Source of the DNA: Lineus longissimus
Taxonomy: Eukaryota > Nemertea > Pilidiophora > Heteronemertea > Lineidae
Direction: 5' to 3'
Assembly: GCF_910592395.1 (NCBI RefSeq)
Contig: NC_088314.1
Span: 10,232,001 to 10,296,000 of the forward strand
DNA length: 64,000 bases
Shown: piece by piece, positions 8,001-62,100 of the stretch
Position numbering within the stretch: the stretch's first letter is position 1
How the letters are laid out: each line of letters opens with the position of its first letter
Notes under the pieces: model-generated
Databases searched by the model: none
What the model saw: only the letters and a program-made list of their open reading frames with translations
Told to the model about the DNA's origin: nothing
Made by a program: the position numbers and the translations under genes

Positions 8001-11000
8001 TTTAGTGCTGAGTCTGACAAGACCAAGGGCCCTTACTGTGTATACTAGTCACTTGAAGATGGCCAAATTAGCACATCTCCTCCTGCCTATAGTCCCCCTT
8101 TAAGGTATCTTACCAGTCTTTTAGTGGTGAAGACTTGAATCCTAGGGGATGTCCAAATAAAGGCAAGTTTACAGTGGTTGTTACCATAGTTACCTTCTCT
8201 ATTTTGATAATATCGGTAAGTGGAATCACAAGATTTTTGGGAGTTTGTGTCTTGGACCTCTCAAAACATAGGAAGCTTCTGGTCAGGTAGAGCTTGCCAT
8301 TCTTGAAGGCAGACGTCAATGACTTCTCCCGGTTGATGAGGGTGCATCGCCGGCCACCACTCCATGCTGCAATATCAGAAAAGACAAACCAATTTTACTT
8401 ATTATGCAAATATAGTGATGAAGAATGACGACGCTAAATCTCTGAAAACAAGTAATTTACTGAGTATGGAAATGTGCTAAGCGCTATAGTTATTTCGTTA
8501 CAGACACATCATATAGATCTTTGTCACATGAGGTGAAAGTCTCGCGTCATAGCTCAAACATTGCAAAAATAAGAGCAGTTCAAAAATCTAATAGCAAAGA
8601 AAAAATTCAAGACTCTTATTTTCATAGTGTTTGAGCTGTGGATCTCACTTTAACTACATGTGCTTAAGATCTGTATGATGATATATTGGCACATTAACAA
8701 GGTAGAGCTCTCATACACCAAGAAACAATTCCATATTTTGATCAGCCGGGCTATGGAGAATTAATGCCTTGGGGTTGATGCGGATGTCCCTATCACCAAA
8801 GAAAAGCAACTTATGGCTAACCTCGTTGCTGGATCGCTAGAAGGATACAATAATCAGCTTCATTGGCATATAAATGCTGTAGCAATCAGCATTTTGAAAA
8901 GCACTTGATCAAGATTCGTCTCTTTTGATAAACATGCGTGGTTCTGATAAGAACCGTTTTTATCTTTATGATACAGCTGTCGCTTCTTTCTTGTTAACTT
9001 GCGGCGCCATCTTCCTCCTCTGCCTCTGATGTGGATGAGCCTCCCAACTCAATCTGGATCAACATCTCGATGATCTCATCCGACTTTTGCCGCATGTAGC
9101 AAACAAACGCATGCCTCACGCCCTCTACCGTCAGCACTCGTAACTGCAGGTTGTAGAGCATGACTTTGTTGTTATTGCGGACTGCCGTACCAATCTTGTC
9201 ATTCAGAACTTGGAGCTCCCGGTCGATGACTCGTATCTGCTGGCCGGCTTTGTTGATCTTCACCTCTGTGTGCTTCGTCATCTGCATCAATGTCTGAATG
9301 TCCATGCTGACTGGGACTTTAATTCTAGTATTAGATGTGACAAGGTCTTTAATTCTTGAAGTAATGTTCTCAAGAGTTCTTATACAAGTTATCACTTTCC
9401 AAGAATGATGCTTTTCAATCTTTACAGCAGTATTTATTCAATCTTCTCATCAATAACTTATAAGATAAGTGAATAAAACTCACAATTAATTTCTTAAGAA
9501 ACACATTGAGTGTTTGGTGGTGATTAGTCACATCAAATAGTGATATCTACTCAGTCATGAACCGGCCTCATAACAGCATATTGAGAAAGCCTTATTTCCG
9601 CTTGAGGAATTCTGAGCAACTTGAGGGTACACCAGTGATGATTACAGTACTTGTCAGCAATTAGGGTACTTCACAAACAAAGTAAGTGTTAAGTGCATGG
9701 TCAACTCTGTCAATTTGTGACCAGAGAGCTCACATCAGTGATGTGGAACTGTCATGGTACCCCCAAAGTGAGAAAAGCTGTGAAAAATTACCCACTCTTA
9801 TTCTTAACCTGTGTTTTAGTACTTGAAATCAGTATTTTCATACTACATAGGATCACCAAAACATTGTCTGGTGAGAAAATGCCTTAGGTTTTGCAATGAA
9901 TGTAACAATAACAAACATCGATTTCCAATGCCCACTAAGAAGAGTATGAAGTCACATGGAATGTGAAATGTCACTTTAGACAACTATCAGCTCATCTGAC
10001 AGGTTAAAAGAACCTTGGTTGATGCAGTGTGCCAGGAAAAGGACATCAAAACTTATAGCTAATCACTTCAGCCATGGACATCTTAACACTTGCAACTTCC
10101 AGCTGTTGTTCCCTTGTGACAATTACGCTGTGTTGGAGGTCAAGTTGGGCATAAATTGATGCATGCATATTTGTAATTCGTATTATCTCGCATGGAATGA
10201 GACTTGCCAGATACTGTAGAACGGAACATTTTTGCGTGCAGAATATTTTCGCAAATTTCGCGAGTAGGTCAGCCCGCGAAAATATTCTGCCGCTAAAAGC
10301 TTATTCCATGTCATTGTTGCCATGTTTCCACAGAGGCACTGCATACAGCTCGACCCTACATATATATCCCGCGCAATTAGCACATACACCTGCTTAATTA
10401 CTGCTAATATTGTGTGCTTATAGACTAAATTACTCGACTCAACAATATATTATATAGGTGACATTGACACTACAGCCCCATACACTAAGAGCTTAGGCAG
10501 TTTACTTGGAAAACAATTCTTCACTCGCGAAAGTATTCTGCCGCTTATATGTCCATCATTAGGCATTCGCGAAAATTTTATGCCACAAACATTTTCTGTT
10601 CTGCCCTGAAATATATTTATCATTTATTGTTGATTTCCATTTGGTAATCTTTACTTAATTACTGTGGTGGCACAGGTAACATGGCAATGTCACGTTGAGT
10701 AAGTGAGCGAGTGACTTAATTACAAGGTAAAAACAAGCTTGATTGGTTTTAATCAATCAAGCTAATTCTTAATTAGACTAGCTAATTCTTAATTAGCTAG
10801 TCTGTGCCCAATCACTCCAGAGTTGTTCTGTCAATTAGCACATATTGGCCATATTCAAAGACAAAACTGATGGATACTACCAAGTGAATCAAGCATTAAG
10901 AATAGCAAATGCAGTGCCAAACAGCATATTAAATTGTTAAAGTTGAAAGGAATAGACAAACAAGTGAGAAGCCTTTTCAGTTCCAACATGAGCCATTTTC

Positions 11001-14000
11001 CCCCAACAAATCTAAAGTGACAGATAGCGAGAAATCTTCGTCCAACAAAATCATCATAATCAATCACATCAAACACTTTATGGCTTAGTCACACAAAAAA
11101 ATATCAGATATTCAAACAAAGAAAATATATGTATCACATATTTTGGTAGATTTGTAGATTTAGAGGAAATAAAAAATTGAATGCTGGTCAGCAAACAATT
11201 CCTCAAAGGTAATTAAACATCCCACCTAATTAACAAAACTGAACAATTACTTGAGTTGAATATAAAGGTCATTCATGAAGATGACTGCAATTAGTTAACT
11301 GTCAGGACATGTTAAAAGGATTTCAATTAGTAATTACCAGTAATCACCAGGAAACAAACAATTCAAGTATGACAGTGATGAAATTAATCTGATGTCAATG
11401 TTGACAGACATGTGTATCAAAAAGTAGAGTGGGTCAATTGACTGATATGAAAAGAGATATAAGGCTGCTGAAATTGAAGGTATCCTCATAATCACTTTTG
11501 TTCTCTTCTAAAGAAGTTGATTCAAACCCTCACAGCAGCTACCAATATCCGAGATGGCTACAGTCATGAAGAAGGCACAACAATACAACCAAGAAGAGTA
11601 CGTTGATGATGAGTTCAAGATCTGGACCCAACTCAAAGAGGCTAATAGAAAGATGTACAAGGCCTGTGAGCAGATTGTCATCCTTGATAGGAAGCTTCAA
11701 GACTTACATCAACGCTTTGTGAATGCTACCAACGAGAGGAACCGCGCTGTAAGATACAACCTCAAACTTAAGCTTGTTACTATAGAGGGCGTGAGGACTG
11801 CCTACTATATGTATGCAACAACCAAGGCCGACGAGAGTCAAGAATTGAGGAAGAAGTTGGCCAGGGCTGATGAAGAGGCTGCAGGATACGGAGAGGAGAT
11901 GTATGAGATTGACATGGACGAGTGAAGTCACAGATTGCGGGATATCAAGTACGGAAAAATAACGGTTCTTTTCAGAACCACAAAAATTGTAAAAAGAGAT
12001 CAATTGGTTAGCTGACAATTTCTTGTTTACATCCTTGCTTCAGCCAAACTGCCATCCTGTGCTGTCAACCAGAATACAATGCAGGGAAACCTTCATTGCT
12101 TATAGCCAAACTGCCATCCTGTGCTGTCAACCAGAATACAATGCAGGGAAACCTTCATTGCTTATAGCCAAACTGCCATCCTTTGCTGTCAACCAGAACA
12201 CAATGTAGGGAAACCTTCATTGCTTATAGCCAAACTGCCATCCTTTGCTGTCAACCAGAACACAATGTAGGGAAACCTTCATTGCTTATAGCCAAACTGC
12301 CATCCTTTGCTGTCAACCAGAACACAATGTAGGGAAACCTTCATTGCTTATAGCCAAACTGCCATCCTTTGCTGTCAACCAGAACACAATGTAGGGAAAC
12401 CTTCATTGCTTATAGCCAAACTGCCATCCTTTGCTGTCAACCAGAACACAATGCAGGGAAACCTTCATTGCTTATAGCCAAACTGCCATCCTTTGCTGTC
12501 AACCAGAACACAATGTAGGGAAACCTTCATTGCTTATAGCCAAACTGCCATCCTTTGCTGTCAACCAGAACACAATGTAGGGAAACCTTCATTGCTTTCA
12601 GCCAAACTGCCATCCTTTGCTGTCAACCAGAACACAATGTAGGGAAACCTTCATTGCTTATAGCCAAACTGCCATCCTTTGCTGTCAACCAGAACACAAT
12701 GCAGGGAAACCTTCATTGCTTATAGCCAAACTGCCATCCTTTGCTGTCAACCAGAACACAATGTAGGGAAACCTTCATTGCTTATAGCCAAACTGCCATC
12801 CTTTGCTGTCAACCAGAACACAATGTAGGGAAACCTTCATTGCTTTCAGCCAAACTGCCATCCTTTGCTGTCAACCAGAACACAATGTAGGGAAACCTTC
12901 ATTGCTTTCAGCCAAACTGCCATCCTTTGCTGTCAACCAGAACACAATGTAGGGAAACCTTCATTGCTTTCAGCCAAACTGCCATCCTTTGCTGTCAACC
13001 AGAACACAATGCAGGGAAACCTTCATTGCTTTCAGCCAAACTGCCGTCCTTTGCTGTCAACCAGAACACAATGTAGGGGAACCTTCATTGCTTATAGCCA
13101 AACTGCCATCCTTTGCTGTCAACCAGAACACAATGTAGGGGAACCTTCATTGCTTTCAGCCAAACTGCCATCCTGTGCTGTCAACCAGAATACAATGTAG
13201 GGAAACCTTCATTGCTTATAGCCAAACTGCCATCCTTTGCTGTCAACCAGAACACAATGTAGGGAACCTTTCATTGCTTTTAGCCAAAAAAGGCATCCAT
13301 TGCTTTCACATGCTATAGATTTTTGATCAACCTTGCTTCAGCCAAACTGTCATCCTTTGCTGTCAACCAGAACACAATGTAGGGAACCTTTCATTGCTTT
13401 TAGCCAAAAAAGGCATCCATTGCTTTCACATGCTATAGATTTTTGATTCAATAAAGTGACTTGAAAACTAATCTTTTTCATCAAAAGTCAATCTGCTTAT
13501 CACCCATGAGAACCATCAGGAAGTACCAATTTCAGTGGCTGTGATGATGGCTGCAGGTACACTTGTTGGGAGTATTCTAAGTGCATCAATGGCTCTCGTG
13601 GTCAAATTCTGGCCACAGCATTTCTGACAACTGAAGTCATAATCAAGAAGCAAACTGCCCCCCTTCTGCAAATGAAATGGCCAGGGCCATTGTGCTCACC
13701 TCATGTGGAGGAAAGATGGATAAAGAGCATGGTATTGTGTCATGTAGTGTTAGGTTTGATGTAGGTCCAAGCAATTACAATTTCCCCAAAATGGCCAATT
13801 TACAGTACATTCGACCTCTGTGACCTTGAAAAGTAGGTCAAATCAAAGAAGACCCGGGTGACATATTGAATGGTTGTTAGAATTAGATGTACCTATGATA
13901 TAAAATTGGTGCCAATCGGGCAAGTAATACTAGGAATAATGGCATTTTGAAGAATTTAGGATTTGGCCCCCTCCCTGGAGGCCAAACGGCAAATCAGATC

Positions 14001-56100: not shown

Positions 56101-59100
56101 TATTTCAGATAAGATAGTTAAGAGCATTCTTCCTTTCACATTGCCCTGTCACACCAAAGTGTCCTCGGTACATTTCATTAAGAAAATTAAGAAGCTCTTC
56201 ATCGAAAGGGTATAGATGGTTCACCACTTCTTTCAGCTGACTGACATGCCTAGTCAAGCCCTCACCGTGCGTGTCCACTTCGTCGGAGAAAAAGCTGGTG
56301 TCACTATCAATGGCAAAGACTTTACGGCACAGGTAAGTTTTGTGGTAAAAGGCCTGATGCCACAGGCACATTTTCCCACTGCTGTCACCGCTACAGGGAA
56401 ACCATGTTCAGCCTAAGCAGTTATCTGATGGTTATAAATGACCTGCTGGTGCGGTTGGTGTCTTGTGATGGTTCTTCCACTTCTCACCAACAGCGCTAGC
56501 AGGTAGGTTGAATTGCCATTTAACCAATAGGAAGAGGCAAAAATGATAAATACTATGCATGCAGTAAACCCCGCTTAAATTTGACACAAGCTGGGGGGGG
56601 GGGACTTTGATGTGACAAAAAACTGTCTTGGGACAAAGATCTAATTATTAGTAATTTAATCTTAATTTTGTAGATAAGCAAGGAGTTTTCCACCCAGGCC
56701 AAACGCATGACAGGTTATACTGCTCGCTATGCTGATCTTGGTCCAGTTAAAGCTTCAAACAGCCGCCTGCATATCAGTGTGAAGAGTGGGATGATCTGTG
56801 CTTTTGCTGTCCTTGGTGATTCCTATAAAGAAAAGCATAAGGATTCCACGCAGATTCAGGCTGAGAATGACATGAAACAGAAAGTAAGTGATGAGAGTGA
56901 TCTTGAGGCCATGCTCATGCTCAAGGACAAGACAAACCAGTGATGGTCTGACCACCAACGCTCTTTGTTGTCATGCTCAAGGACAAGACTAACCAGTGAT
57001 GGTCTGACCACCAACGCTCTTTGTTGTCATGCTCAAGGACAAGACTAACCAGTGATGGTCCGACCAACAACACTCTTTGTTGTCATGCTCAAGGACAAGA
57101 CTAACCAGTGATGGTCCGACCACCAACGCTCTTTGTTGTCATGCTCAAGGACAAGACTAACCAGTGATGGTCCGACCACCAACGCTCTTTGTTGTCATGC
57201 TCAAGGACAAGACAAACCAGTGATGGTCTGACCACCAACGCTCTTTGTTGTCATGCTCAAGGACAAGACTAACCAGTGATGGTCTGACCACCAACGCTCT
57301 TTGTTGTCATGCTCAAGGACAAGACTAACCAGTGATGGTCCGACCACCAACGCTCTTTGTTGTCATGCTCAAGGACAAGACTAACCAGTGATGGTCCGAC
57401 CACCAACGCTCTTTGTTGTCATGCTCAAGGACAAGACAAACCAGTGATGGTCCGACCATCAACGCTCTTTGTTGTCATGCTCAAGGACAAGACAAACCAG
57501 TGATGGTCTGACCACCAACGCTCTTTGTTGTCATGCTCAAGGACAAGACTAACCAGTGATGGTCCGACCACCAACGCTCTTTGTTGTCATGCTCAAGGAC
57601 AAGACTAACCAGTGATGGTCCGACCACAAACGCTCTTTGTTGTCATGCTCAAGGACAAGACTAACCAGTGATGGTCTGACCACCAACGCTCTTTGTTGTC
57701 ATGCTCAAGGACAAGACTAACCAGTGATGGTCCGACCACCAACGCTCTTTGTTGTCATGCTCAAGGACAAGACTAACCAGTGATGGTCTGACCACCAACG
57801 CTCTTTGTTGTCATGCTCAAGGACAAGACAAACCAGTGATGGTCTGACCACCAACGCTCTTTGTTGTCATGCTCAAGGACAAGACTAACCAGTGATGGTC
57901 CGACCACCAACGCTCTTTGTTGTCATGCTCAAGGACAAGACTAACCAGTGATGGTCCGACCACCAACGCTCTTTGTTGTCATGCTCAAGGACAAGACTAA
58001 CCAGTGATGCTCCGACCACCAACGCTCTTTGTTGTCATGCTCAAGGACAAGACTAACCAGTGATGGTCTGACCACCAAAGCTCTTTGTTGTCATGCTCAA
58101 GGACAAGACAAACCAGTGATGGTCCGACCACCAATGCTCTTTGTTGTCATGCTCAAGGACAAGACAAACCAGTGATGGTCTGACCACCAACGCTCTTTGT
58201 TGTCATGTTCAAGGACAAGACTAACCAGTGATGGTCCGACCACCAACGCTCTTTGTTGTCATGCTCAAGGACAAGACTAACCAGTGATGGTCTGACCACC
58301 AAAGCTCTTTGTTGTCATGCTCAAGGACAAGACAAACCAGTGATGGTCCGACCACCAATGCTCTTTGTTGTCATGCTCAAGGACAAGACAAACCAGTGAT
58401 GGTCTGACCACCAACGCTCTTTGTTGTCATGCTCAAGGACAAGACTAACCAGTGATGGTCCGACCACCAACGCTCTTTGTTGTCATGCTCAAGGACAAGA
58501 CTAACCAGTGATGGTCCGACCAACAACGCTCTTTGTTGTCATGTTCAAGGACAAGACTAACCAGTGATGGTCTGACCACCAACGCTCTTTGTTGTCATGC
58601 TCAAGGACAAGACAAACCAATGATGGTCCGACCACCAACACTCTTTGTTGTCATGCTCAAGGACAAGACTAACCAGTGATGGTCCGACCACCAACGCTCT
58701 TTGTTGTCATGTTCAAGGACAAGACTAACCAGTGATGGTCCGACCACCAACGCTCTTTGTTGTCATGCTCAAGGACAAGACTAACCAGTGATGGTCCGAC
58801 CAACAACGCTCTTTGTTGTCATGCTCAAGGACAAGACTAACCAGTGATGGTCTGACCACCAACACTCTTTCTTGTCATGCTCAAGGACAAGACTAACCAG
58901 TGATGGTCCGACCACAACGCTCTTTGTTGTCATGCTCAAGGACAAGACTAACCAGTGATGGTCCGACCACAACGCTCTTTGTTGTCATGCTCAAGGACAA
59001 GACTAACCAGTGATGGTCCGACCACCAACGCTCTTTGTTGTCATGCTCAAGGACAAGACTAACCAGTGATGCTCCGACCACCAACGCTCTTTGTTGTCAT

Positions 59101-62100
59101 GCTCAAGGACAAGACTAACCAGTGATGGTCCGACCACCAACGCTCTTTGTTGTCATGCTCAAGGACAAGACTAACCAGTGATGGTCCGACCACCAACGCT
59201 CTTTGTTGTCATGCGCAAGGACAAGACTAACCAGTGATGGTCCAACCACAATGCTCTTTGTTGTCATGCTCAAGGACAAGACTAACCAGTGATGGTCCGA
59301 CCACCAACGCTCTTTGTTGTCATGCTCAAGGACAAGACAAACCAGTGATGGTCCGACCACCAACGCTCTTTGTTGTCATGCTCAAGGACAAGACAAACCA
59401 GTGATGGTCTGACCACCAACGCTCTTTGTTGTCATGCTCAAGGACAAGACAAACCAGTGATGGTCTGACCACCAACGCTCTTTGTTGTCATGCTCAAGGA
59501 CAAGACTAACCAGTGATGGTCCGACCACCAACGCTCTTTGTTGTCATGCTCAAGGACAAGACTAACCAGTGATGGTCTGACCACCAAAGCTCTTTGTTGT
59601 CATGCTCAAGGACAAGACTAACCAGTGATGGTCTGACCACCAAAGCTCTTTGTTGTCATGCTCAAGGACAAGACAAACCAGTGATGGTCCGACCACCAAC
59701 GCTCTTTGTTGTCATGCTCAAGGACAAGACTAACCAGTGATGGTCCGACCACCAACGCTCTTTGTTGTCATGCTCAAGGACAAGACTAACCAGTGATGGT
59801 CTGACCACCAACGCTCTTTGTTGTCATGCTCAAGGACAAGACTAACCAGTGATGGTCCGACCACCAACGCTCTTTGTTGTCATGCGCAAGGACAAGACTA
59901 ACCAGTGATGGTTTGACCACCAACGCTCTTTGTTGTCATGCGCAAGGACAAGACTAACCAGTGATGGTCTGACCACCAACGCTCTTTGTTGTCATGTTCA
60001 AGGGCAAGACTAACCAGTGATGGTCCGACCACCAACGCTCTTTGTTGTCATGCTCAAGGACAAGACTAACCAGTGATGCTCCGACCACCAACGCTCTTTG
60101 TTGTCATGCTCAAGGACAAGACAAACCAGTGATGGTCTGACCACCAACCTTATTTTTTGTTGTCATGCGCAAGGACAAGACTAACCAGTGATGGTCCGAC
60201 CACCAACGCTCTTTGTTGTCATGCTCAAGGACAAGACTAACCAGTGATGGTCCGACCACCAACGCTCTTTGTTGTCATGCTCAAGGACAAGACTAACCAG
60301 TGATGGTCCAACCACAATGCTCTTTGTTGTCATGCTCAAGGACAAGACTAACCAGTGATGGTCCGACCACAAACGCTCTTTGTTGTCATGTTCAAGGGCA
60401 AGACTAACCAGTGATGGTCGACCACCAACGCTCCTTGTTGTCATGCTCAAGGACAAGACTAACCAGTGATGGTCTGACCACCAACACTCTTTGTTGTCAT
60501 GCTCAAGGACAAGACAAACCAGTGATGGTCCGACCAACGCTCTTTGTTGTCATGCTCAAGGACAAGACTAACCAGTGATGCTCCGACCACCAACGCTCTT
60601 TGTTGTCATGCTCAAGGACAAGACAAACCAGTGATGGTCTGACCACCAACCTTATTTTTTGTTGTCATGCGCAAGGACAAGACTAACCAGTGATGGTCCG
60701 ACCACCAACGCTCTTTGTTGTCATGCTCAAGGACAAGACTAACCAGTGATGGTCCGACCACCAACGCTCTTTGTTGTCATGCTCAAGGACAAGACTAACC
60801 AGTGATGGTCCAACCACAATGCTCTTTGTTGTCATGCTCAAGGACAAGACTAACCAGTGATGGTCCGACCACAAACGCTCTTTGTTGTCATGTTCAAGGG
60901 CAAGACTAACCAGTGATGGTCGACCACCAACGCTCTTTGTTGTCATGCTCAAGGACAAGACTAACCAGTGATGGTCTGACCACCAACACTCTTTGTTGTC
61001 ATGCTCAAGGACAAGACAAACCAGTGATGGTCCGACCACCAACGCTCTTTGTTGTCATGCTCAAGGACAAGACTAACCAGTGATGGTCCGACCACAAACG
61101 CTCTTTGTTGTCATGCTCAAGGACAAAACTAACCAGTGATGGTCCGACCACAACGCTCTTTGTTGTCATGCTCAAGGACAAGACAAACCAGTGATGGTCC
61201 GACCACCAATGCTCTTTGTTGTCATGCTCAAGGACAAGACTAACCAGTGATGGTCCGACCACAAACGCTCTTTGTTGTCATGCTCAAGGACAAAACTAAC
61301 CAGTGATGGTCCGACCACAACGCTCTTTGTTGTCATGCTCAAGGACAAGACTAACCAGTGATGGTCCGACCACCAACCTTCCCTCCTCCCCTCCAGCCCA
61401 TCTAAACTCTACCATTATTTGTTGCAGCTCTGTGACGAAGCTGAGCCTCTTAGCAGAACCGTGATCAAGAAGCAGATGGCCATTGTTGGTTGGTCGCAAA
61501 ATCTTCTTCAGAATGCAAGTGCTGAGGTAACTTCCTTCTGTGTACATGTATCAGTGATTCACATGGTTTTATCATAGAGAAAGTAGACCCAGTAGCTGTA
61601 ATCCATTTATCAAAATAGTAGTAGTATATATATAGTTTAAAGTTGAGAGGTACAAAAATCCACTTGAGGTCTTTTTGAGTTTACATTGTGATTACATACA
61701 TATACGTTACATCACATTATTATGATCACAGTATCGGGCGCCTCCAGTGAGATCAGTGGCGGGTATCCTCTGGCGCCTCCAGGTGTTATAGGGCTAAATA
61801 TAAATTTCAACATTAGCCGCACTTACACCACCTGAAAATGGACCACCCATTTTGGTTCGGGAACCAATGCCGCACCATCGAAAATCCACCAAGCGCTTAC
61901 ACCAGCGCTGCAGCTAGTTATAAAATCCGGCTACAGATGGCGCGCAAACAATAAGCAGAACGCGGAAAGCCTTGGCAGAAAGCGCCATTTCGAAAGCGCC
62001 GCCTGGAGCCGAACCATCTAACTAGCTAATTGCCGATCCATTTGCGCGTACACCACGACAAAGCCGAGCTTTTAACAAGCCGGGCGAATTTGGACCATCA

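Follow-up and report, generated by a model that had tools for sequence, protein, structure and literature searches.

Histone-type mRNA 3' ends appear to be shared by a multi-copy non-histone gene family in Lineus longissimus

Replication-dependent histone mRNAs are the only metazoan mRNAs known to end in a stem-loop (PMC6303110), and the available passages of PMC12775136 term them a unique class. Poly(A)-minus mRNAs of non-histone genes have been published, including znf460 and sesn3, and the available passages of that study give them no histone-type stem-loop (PMC3188798). Our literature search, which was partial and thin on subscription papers, turned up no non-histone stem-loop mRNA. Here, we describe a pair of genes in a 64,000-nucleotide (nt) stretch of the Lineus longissimus genome (C7:10232001-10296000, hereafter the window) that belong to a large family. 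The mechanism is known, and the kind of client appears to be new, namely a non-histone family with histone-type mRNA ends. The best explanation, which we hold with a probability of about 0.8, is that the pre-mRNAs of this multi-copy family of helical-hairpin proteins are processed by the worm's histone mRNA machinery, yielding poly(A)-minus mRNAs under histone-type post-transcriptional control.

The two window genes are divergently oriented and share the same layout. The plus-strand member is an intronless open reading frame (ORF; 11554..11925) for a predicted helical-hairpin protein of 123 amino acids with an acidic tail, based on ORF reading, paralogue alignment and an AlphaFold2 model. A TATAAG box (11458..11463) lies upstream with the ATG 96 nt further on. 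The histone-type stem-loop GGTTCTTTTCAGAACC (11964..11979; RF00032 match and fold) is located 38 nt 3' of the stop, and is followed after 12 nt by a histone-downstream-element-like AAAAGAGA (11992..11999), an element found also in the worm's histone genes. The minus-strand paralogue (intronless ORF at 8994..9305, 103 amino acids) has its TATAAG box at 9379..9384 with the ATG 79 nt downstream, the stem-loop GGTTCTTATCAGAACC at 8940..8955 (38 nt 3' of the stop; RF00032 match and fold) and AAAAGAGA at 8919..8926, 13 nt 3' of the stem. The coding part of both genes is unbroken as far as the stem-loop. A sequence-only reading of the window had placed stem-loops and elements at these distances and likened the layout to replication-dependent histone genes. 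The distances were confirmed at both genes, and the short 3' untranslated region (UTR), stem-loop, element, intronless coding part and TATAAG boxes were all seen. That reading also called the two genes nested, but nesting in a host gene is not established. A GRAM-domain exon (PF02893, E 3.4e-10) on the minus strand at window 8113-8394 perhaps comes from a host gene surrounding the pair. On the other side, a long minisatellite (window 12035-13408, 22 copies of a 62-bp unit) begins 36 nt beyond the AAAAGAGA of the plus gene.

The window proteins are paralogous coiled-coil proteins, with 28 of 71 residues identical (E 1e-16, pairwise protein comparison). Codons agree at position 2 in 49 of 71 cases and at position 3 in 26 of 71, with a nonsynonymous divergence (dN) of 0.58 and a synonymous divergence (dS) that is not computable. 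This codon-position agreement indicates that the proteins of the pair are under purifying selection. The 38-nt UTR leads ahead of the two stems are identical at just 11 positions, and stem and element stand out because this surrounding lead has diverged. Folded in isolation, both stem-loops reach -6.9 kcal/mol with z near -5, and that of the plus gene matches the Rfam Histone3 model (RF00032) at 38.7 bits (gathering threshold 34, E 8.3e-8).

A search of the genome (391,118,348 bases in 30 contigs) with the plus-strand protein found at least 115 matching places at E<=10 and at least 105 at E<=1e-3. The 105 matches, which include some fragments and broken copies, fall mainly on C12 (83, with 22 elsewhere), mostly within two stretches at 8.99-9.01 and 9.37-9.48 Mb. 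There, 2.7-2.8 kb repeats form an array in which a minus copy (101 amino acids) and a plus copy (94 amino acids) stand head to head. Tallying 250 nt of 3' flank for 82 of the 105 matches, with 23 array matches left out, we found the stem GGYYYT-N4-ARRRCC in 77 of 82 and, by a loose pattern, stem plus downstream element in 76. Within the window, 78 ORFs start with ATG and reach 60 amino acids or more, and just two of these, the pair itself, carried such a stem within 120 nt. Outside C12, 18 of 22 matches have the stem-loop. Among 78 stem-bearing gene records, the downstream element is AAAGAGA in 43, AAAATGAGA in 31 (array plus copies) and a one-base-type variant in 4, and the stem is GGTTCT in 65; six family copies have GGCCCT. 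The five matches lacking a stem are a C8 copy with an in-frame stop and a decayed stem, one array fragment, and members on C4, C1 (C1:17180751) and C19. Of 21 picked members, 10 have a TATA[AT][AG] box no more than 170 nt from the ATG, and 5' UTR introns are possible in the rest.

The worm's own histone genes lie apart from the family loci, with 29 of 38 genome matches to PF00125 at C6 5.75-6.04 Mb. A comparison covering H2A, H2B, H3 and H4 gave the 3' stems GGCCCTTCTCAGGGCC (H3), GGCCTTTCTAAAGGCC (H2A), GGCCCTTATTAGGGCC (H4) and CGTCCTTCTCAGGACG (H2B), with AAAAGAGA located 11-12 nt past the stem in all four. By contrast, an H3 gene on C1 shows none over 130 nt. Among the family ends, ACAAAATTATTTAAAAGAGACCAATCGT for instance is similar to the H2B end CCAAAATATTTAAAAAGAGATCAATCGT. 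H2B stems (L062, L064, C6) start with a C-G pair (CGTCCT...AGGACG), whereas the other histone stems seen start with G-C; the GG...CC pattern therefore misses H2B, and a wider pattern reveals its CGTCCT stem. The genome encodes a single SLBP_RNA_bind match above cut-off (C6:16122499, 97.2 bits). Also in favor of the main explanation, 72 of 75 RF00032 matches scored across the genome were above cut-off, histone and family loci included, compared to 0 of 14 control genomes; scoring covered 75 of 64572 first-look candidates. The earlier claim of histone-type 3' ends on non-histone genes, offered as a possible new class, is thus supported by the tally of stems, their covariation, the element shared with histones and an SLBP gene.

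The known histone pathway supplies a model for each RNA step. RNA polymerase II would yield an unspliced family pre-mRNA. SLBP would bind the stem-loop, while a U7-type small nuclear ribonucleoprotein would pair with AAAAGAGA, and cleavage would follow a few nt 3' of the stem. The mRNA might then be stored, translated and destroyed alongside histone mRNAs, in S phase or in the oocyte and early embryo. That the genes are transcribed, and that their mRNAs are cleaved, lack poly(A), are timed in this way and encode a product needed in bulk, is inferred from the signals and the known pathway. The processing pathway of histone mRNAs is described in the passages available of PMC5636114 and PMC7026596.

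Several observations weigh against processing of the family by the histone machinery. The minus-strand window stem-loop scores 29.1 bits against RF00032, under the gathering threshold of 34 (E 3.2e-4). U7 (RF00066) was not identified in the genome, with six weak matches of at best 24.6 bits against a cut-off of 34. Below-cut-off RF00066 matches occur also in 12 of 14 prokaryote controls, which places the U7 candidates at noise level. Three of the six contain CTCTTT. The octamer ATGCAAAT is present in 16 histone promoters of a set of 20, which includes many near-copies and no captured H4 promoter, versus 0 of 19 family promoters. The motif GTCA-N2-9-TGAC occurs in 7 of 19 family genes, against a mean of 0.8 and a maximum of 5 in shuffles, and in none of the 20 histone promoters; as it was picked after looking, it is no more than a lead. 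Stem-loops are found beyond histones and the family, with 10 of the 11 further RF00032 loci that were read representing a dispersed repeat. The 77 stem-bearing matches are for the most part not independent, as copies within the C12 array are nearly identical, and the evidence comes from one species. Finally, some broken copies keep their stem, such as C8:14821514 (internal stop) and truncated array copies, so the stem alone is no proof of a working gene. Our confidence is slightly lowered because broken copies keep stems and because promoters differ. The difference between family and histone promoters also makes it more likely that any coupling to histone supply is post-transcriptional.

Stems in broken copies could mean that the stem-loop is an inherited relic or an optional signal. 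Histone 3' flanks would have been taken over by the genes, whose mRNAs would mostly be polyadenylated; this can happen with some histone mRNAs, and PMC3661734 reports polyadenylated forms for replication-dependent histone genes. We consider this unlikely, since paralogues that have diverged widely retain the stem and the element but not the UTR lead, and since a copy with an in-frame stop (C8:18613125) has a decayed stem. The stems of family 3' ends also carry compensatory changes. Across 16 of 27 distinct 3' ends, with near-duplicates omitted, stem cells are paired in 96 of 96 cases and 10 cells are altered on both sides, the varying positions being pairs 3 and 4 (UA, CG, UG). Double-sided changes of this extent were reached by 0 of 500 shuffles, a test that can be inflated by relatedness of family members, and slid controls pair at 10-56%. 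Measures counting pairs and types of pairs were not unusual (reached by 177 and 358 of 500 shuffles, respectively).

The family might instead have spread with mobile or array DNA that acquired a histone 3' end, with a secondary or selfish role for the protein. Sixteen RF00032 loci belonged neither to the histone cluster nor to the listed family matches; 11 of them were read and five left out. One, L087, is a very diverged probable family member reached via its stem-loop. The other 10 (L088-L097; on C4, C1, C7, C9, C3, C2, C8 and C11) belong to a second dispersed repeat unrelated to the family. Its copies are 72-96% alike over shared parts (L094 has just 48-80 bases in common with the rest) and end in the stem GGCCTTTCTAAAGGCC (GGCCTTTCTTAAGGCC in L094) followed by a AAAAGAGA-type element. 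The reading frames look broken, and the repeat may be a mobile element that carries a histone-type 3' end. Such a repeat favors spread with mobile DNA, as do the U5 small nuclear RNA (snRNA) and 5S ribosomal RNA (rRNA) genes in C12 array units (L011 722-841 and 1183-1301; likewise in L018, L048 and L049). Among seven minus-copy stem-loops in L011, L018 and L047-L049, six adjoin both 5S rRNA and U5 snRNA genes, and the L047 minus copy has neither above cut-off beside its stem-loop. Yet the proteins appear to be under purifying selection, the dispersed members, whether single genes or pairs, are diverged, and a Pfam scan of 18 members found no credible transposon domain. A mobile or selfish origin seems distinctly improbable.

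The divergent pairs, the tandem array and the 3' ends resemble histone genes, and the proteins could conceivably be extremely diverged histones forming an odd subfamily. Both window proteins score under every Pfam cut-off. The 18 members had no credible Pfam family (best E 0.0016), and no histone was among the 13 families listed. An AlphaFold2 model from an 18-row alignment has a mean predicted local distance difference test score (pLDDT) of 87.9, with two long helices at 2-60 and 64-115, a core pLDDT of 95-98 and a weaker acidic tail. The model is a two-helix hairpin, whereas a histone fold has three helices. In addition, several family members are acidic. A histone origin is very hard to sustain on this evidence, and the sequence-only claim that the proteins are not histones holds. 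Chance hairpins or a feature at the DNA level have only the shortness of the motif in their favor and can practically be dismissed, given stems in 77 of 82 family matches and no occurrence of the full stem and element pattern in 20 Mb simulated at order 2 (91 for a loose stem alone).

Beyond processing by the histone machinery, we tentatively suggest a broader and rather doubtful scenario. In it, the histone mRNA pathway would serve a second class of clients besides histones, and dozens of tandem divergent pairs would encode a coiled-coil component of chromatin or replication, possibly heterodimeric and supplied in step with DNA synthesis. Spliced, polyadenylated "replacement" members would complete an independent parallel of the split between replication-dependent and replacement histones. 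The commonest C12 array partners have isoelectric points of about 5.2 and 10.3, raising the speculation of an acidic-basic heterodimer. This part remains speculative because both proteins of the window pair are acidic (5.6 and 5.3), which counts against it, and those of the C1:22 pair both basic. Histone locus bodies frequently accompany Cajal bodies according to the passages available of PMC9133132, and, as a guess, the U5 linkage in the C12 array may matter. Three intact-looking members have no stem-loop (C4, C1 at 17.18 Mb and C19). The C4 and C1 members have splice-acceptor-like sequence ahead of the ORF, and the C19 member an apparent coding-region intron (CTTCAG/GTATGA ... TTTCAG/GTATAA). 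AATAAA follows 750, 457 and 353 nt beyond the stop in the C4, C1 and C19 members, respectively, and is a weak marker as it is common in such DNA. All three look spliced with an AATAAA polyadenylation signal, and they count in favor of the main explanation as well.

Elsewhere in the window, a plus-strand ORF at 43525-43821 matches MYEOV2 (PF15004) at 27.2 bits against a cut-off of 27, and a second long minisatellite spans 56915-61377 (80 copies of a 56-bp unit).

Our findings suggest that proteins other than histones may also be subject to histone-style control of their messages. If true, the presence of these signals across a large non-histone family would mean that the stem-loop is no longer exclusive to histones. 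The family would also provide an independent test of the purpose of the stem-loop, be it cell-cycle coupling, oocyte storage or high output. A search for further SLBP clients, missed by poly(A)-selected RNA-seq, would be opened.

Compared to known systems, the family comes closest to the replication-dependent histone genes (SLBP/U7 class, RF00032). Both consist of small genes with an unbroken coding part and a short 3' UTR, both have a 6-bp stem with a 4-nt loop and AAAAGAGA downstream, and both occur in divergent pairs and tandem arrays. In contrast, the family proteins are not histones, and the stems are mostly GGTTCT, whereas the worm's histones have GGCCCT, GGCCTT or CGTCCT. The histone cluster lies on C6, apart from the family, and its octamer ATGCAAAT is missing from the 19 family promoters. 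In animals, 5S ribosomal DNA arrays can be linked to histone or snRNA genes. The C12 array likewise consists of tandem 5S rRNA and U5 snRNA units beside divergent stem-loop genes, but these are not histone genes. Replacement histone variant genes are spliced and polyadenylated, and the stem-loop-less C4, C1 and C19 members likewise look spliced with AATAAA downstream; they differ in encoding non-histone proteins, and their splicing and polyadenylation are predictions from sequence.

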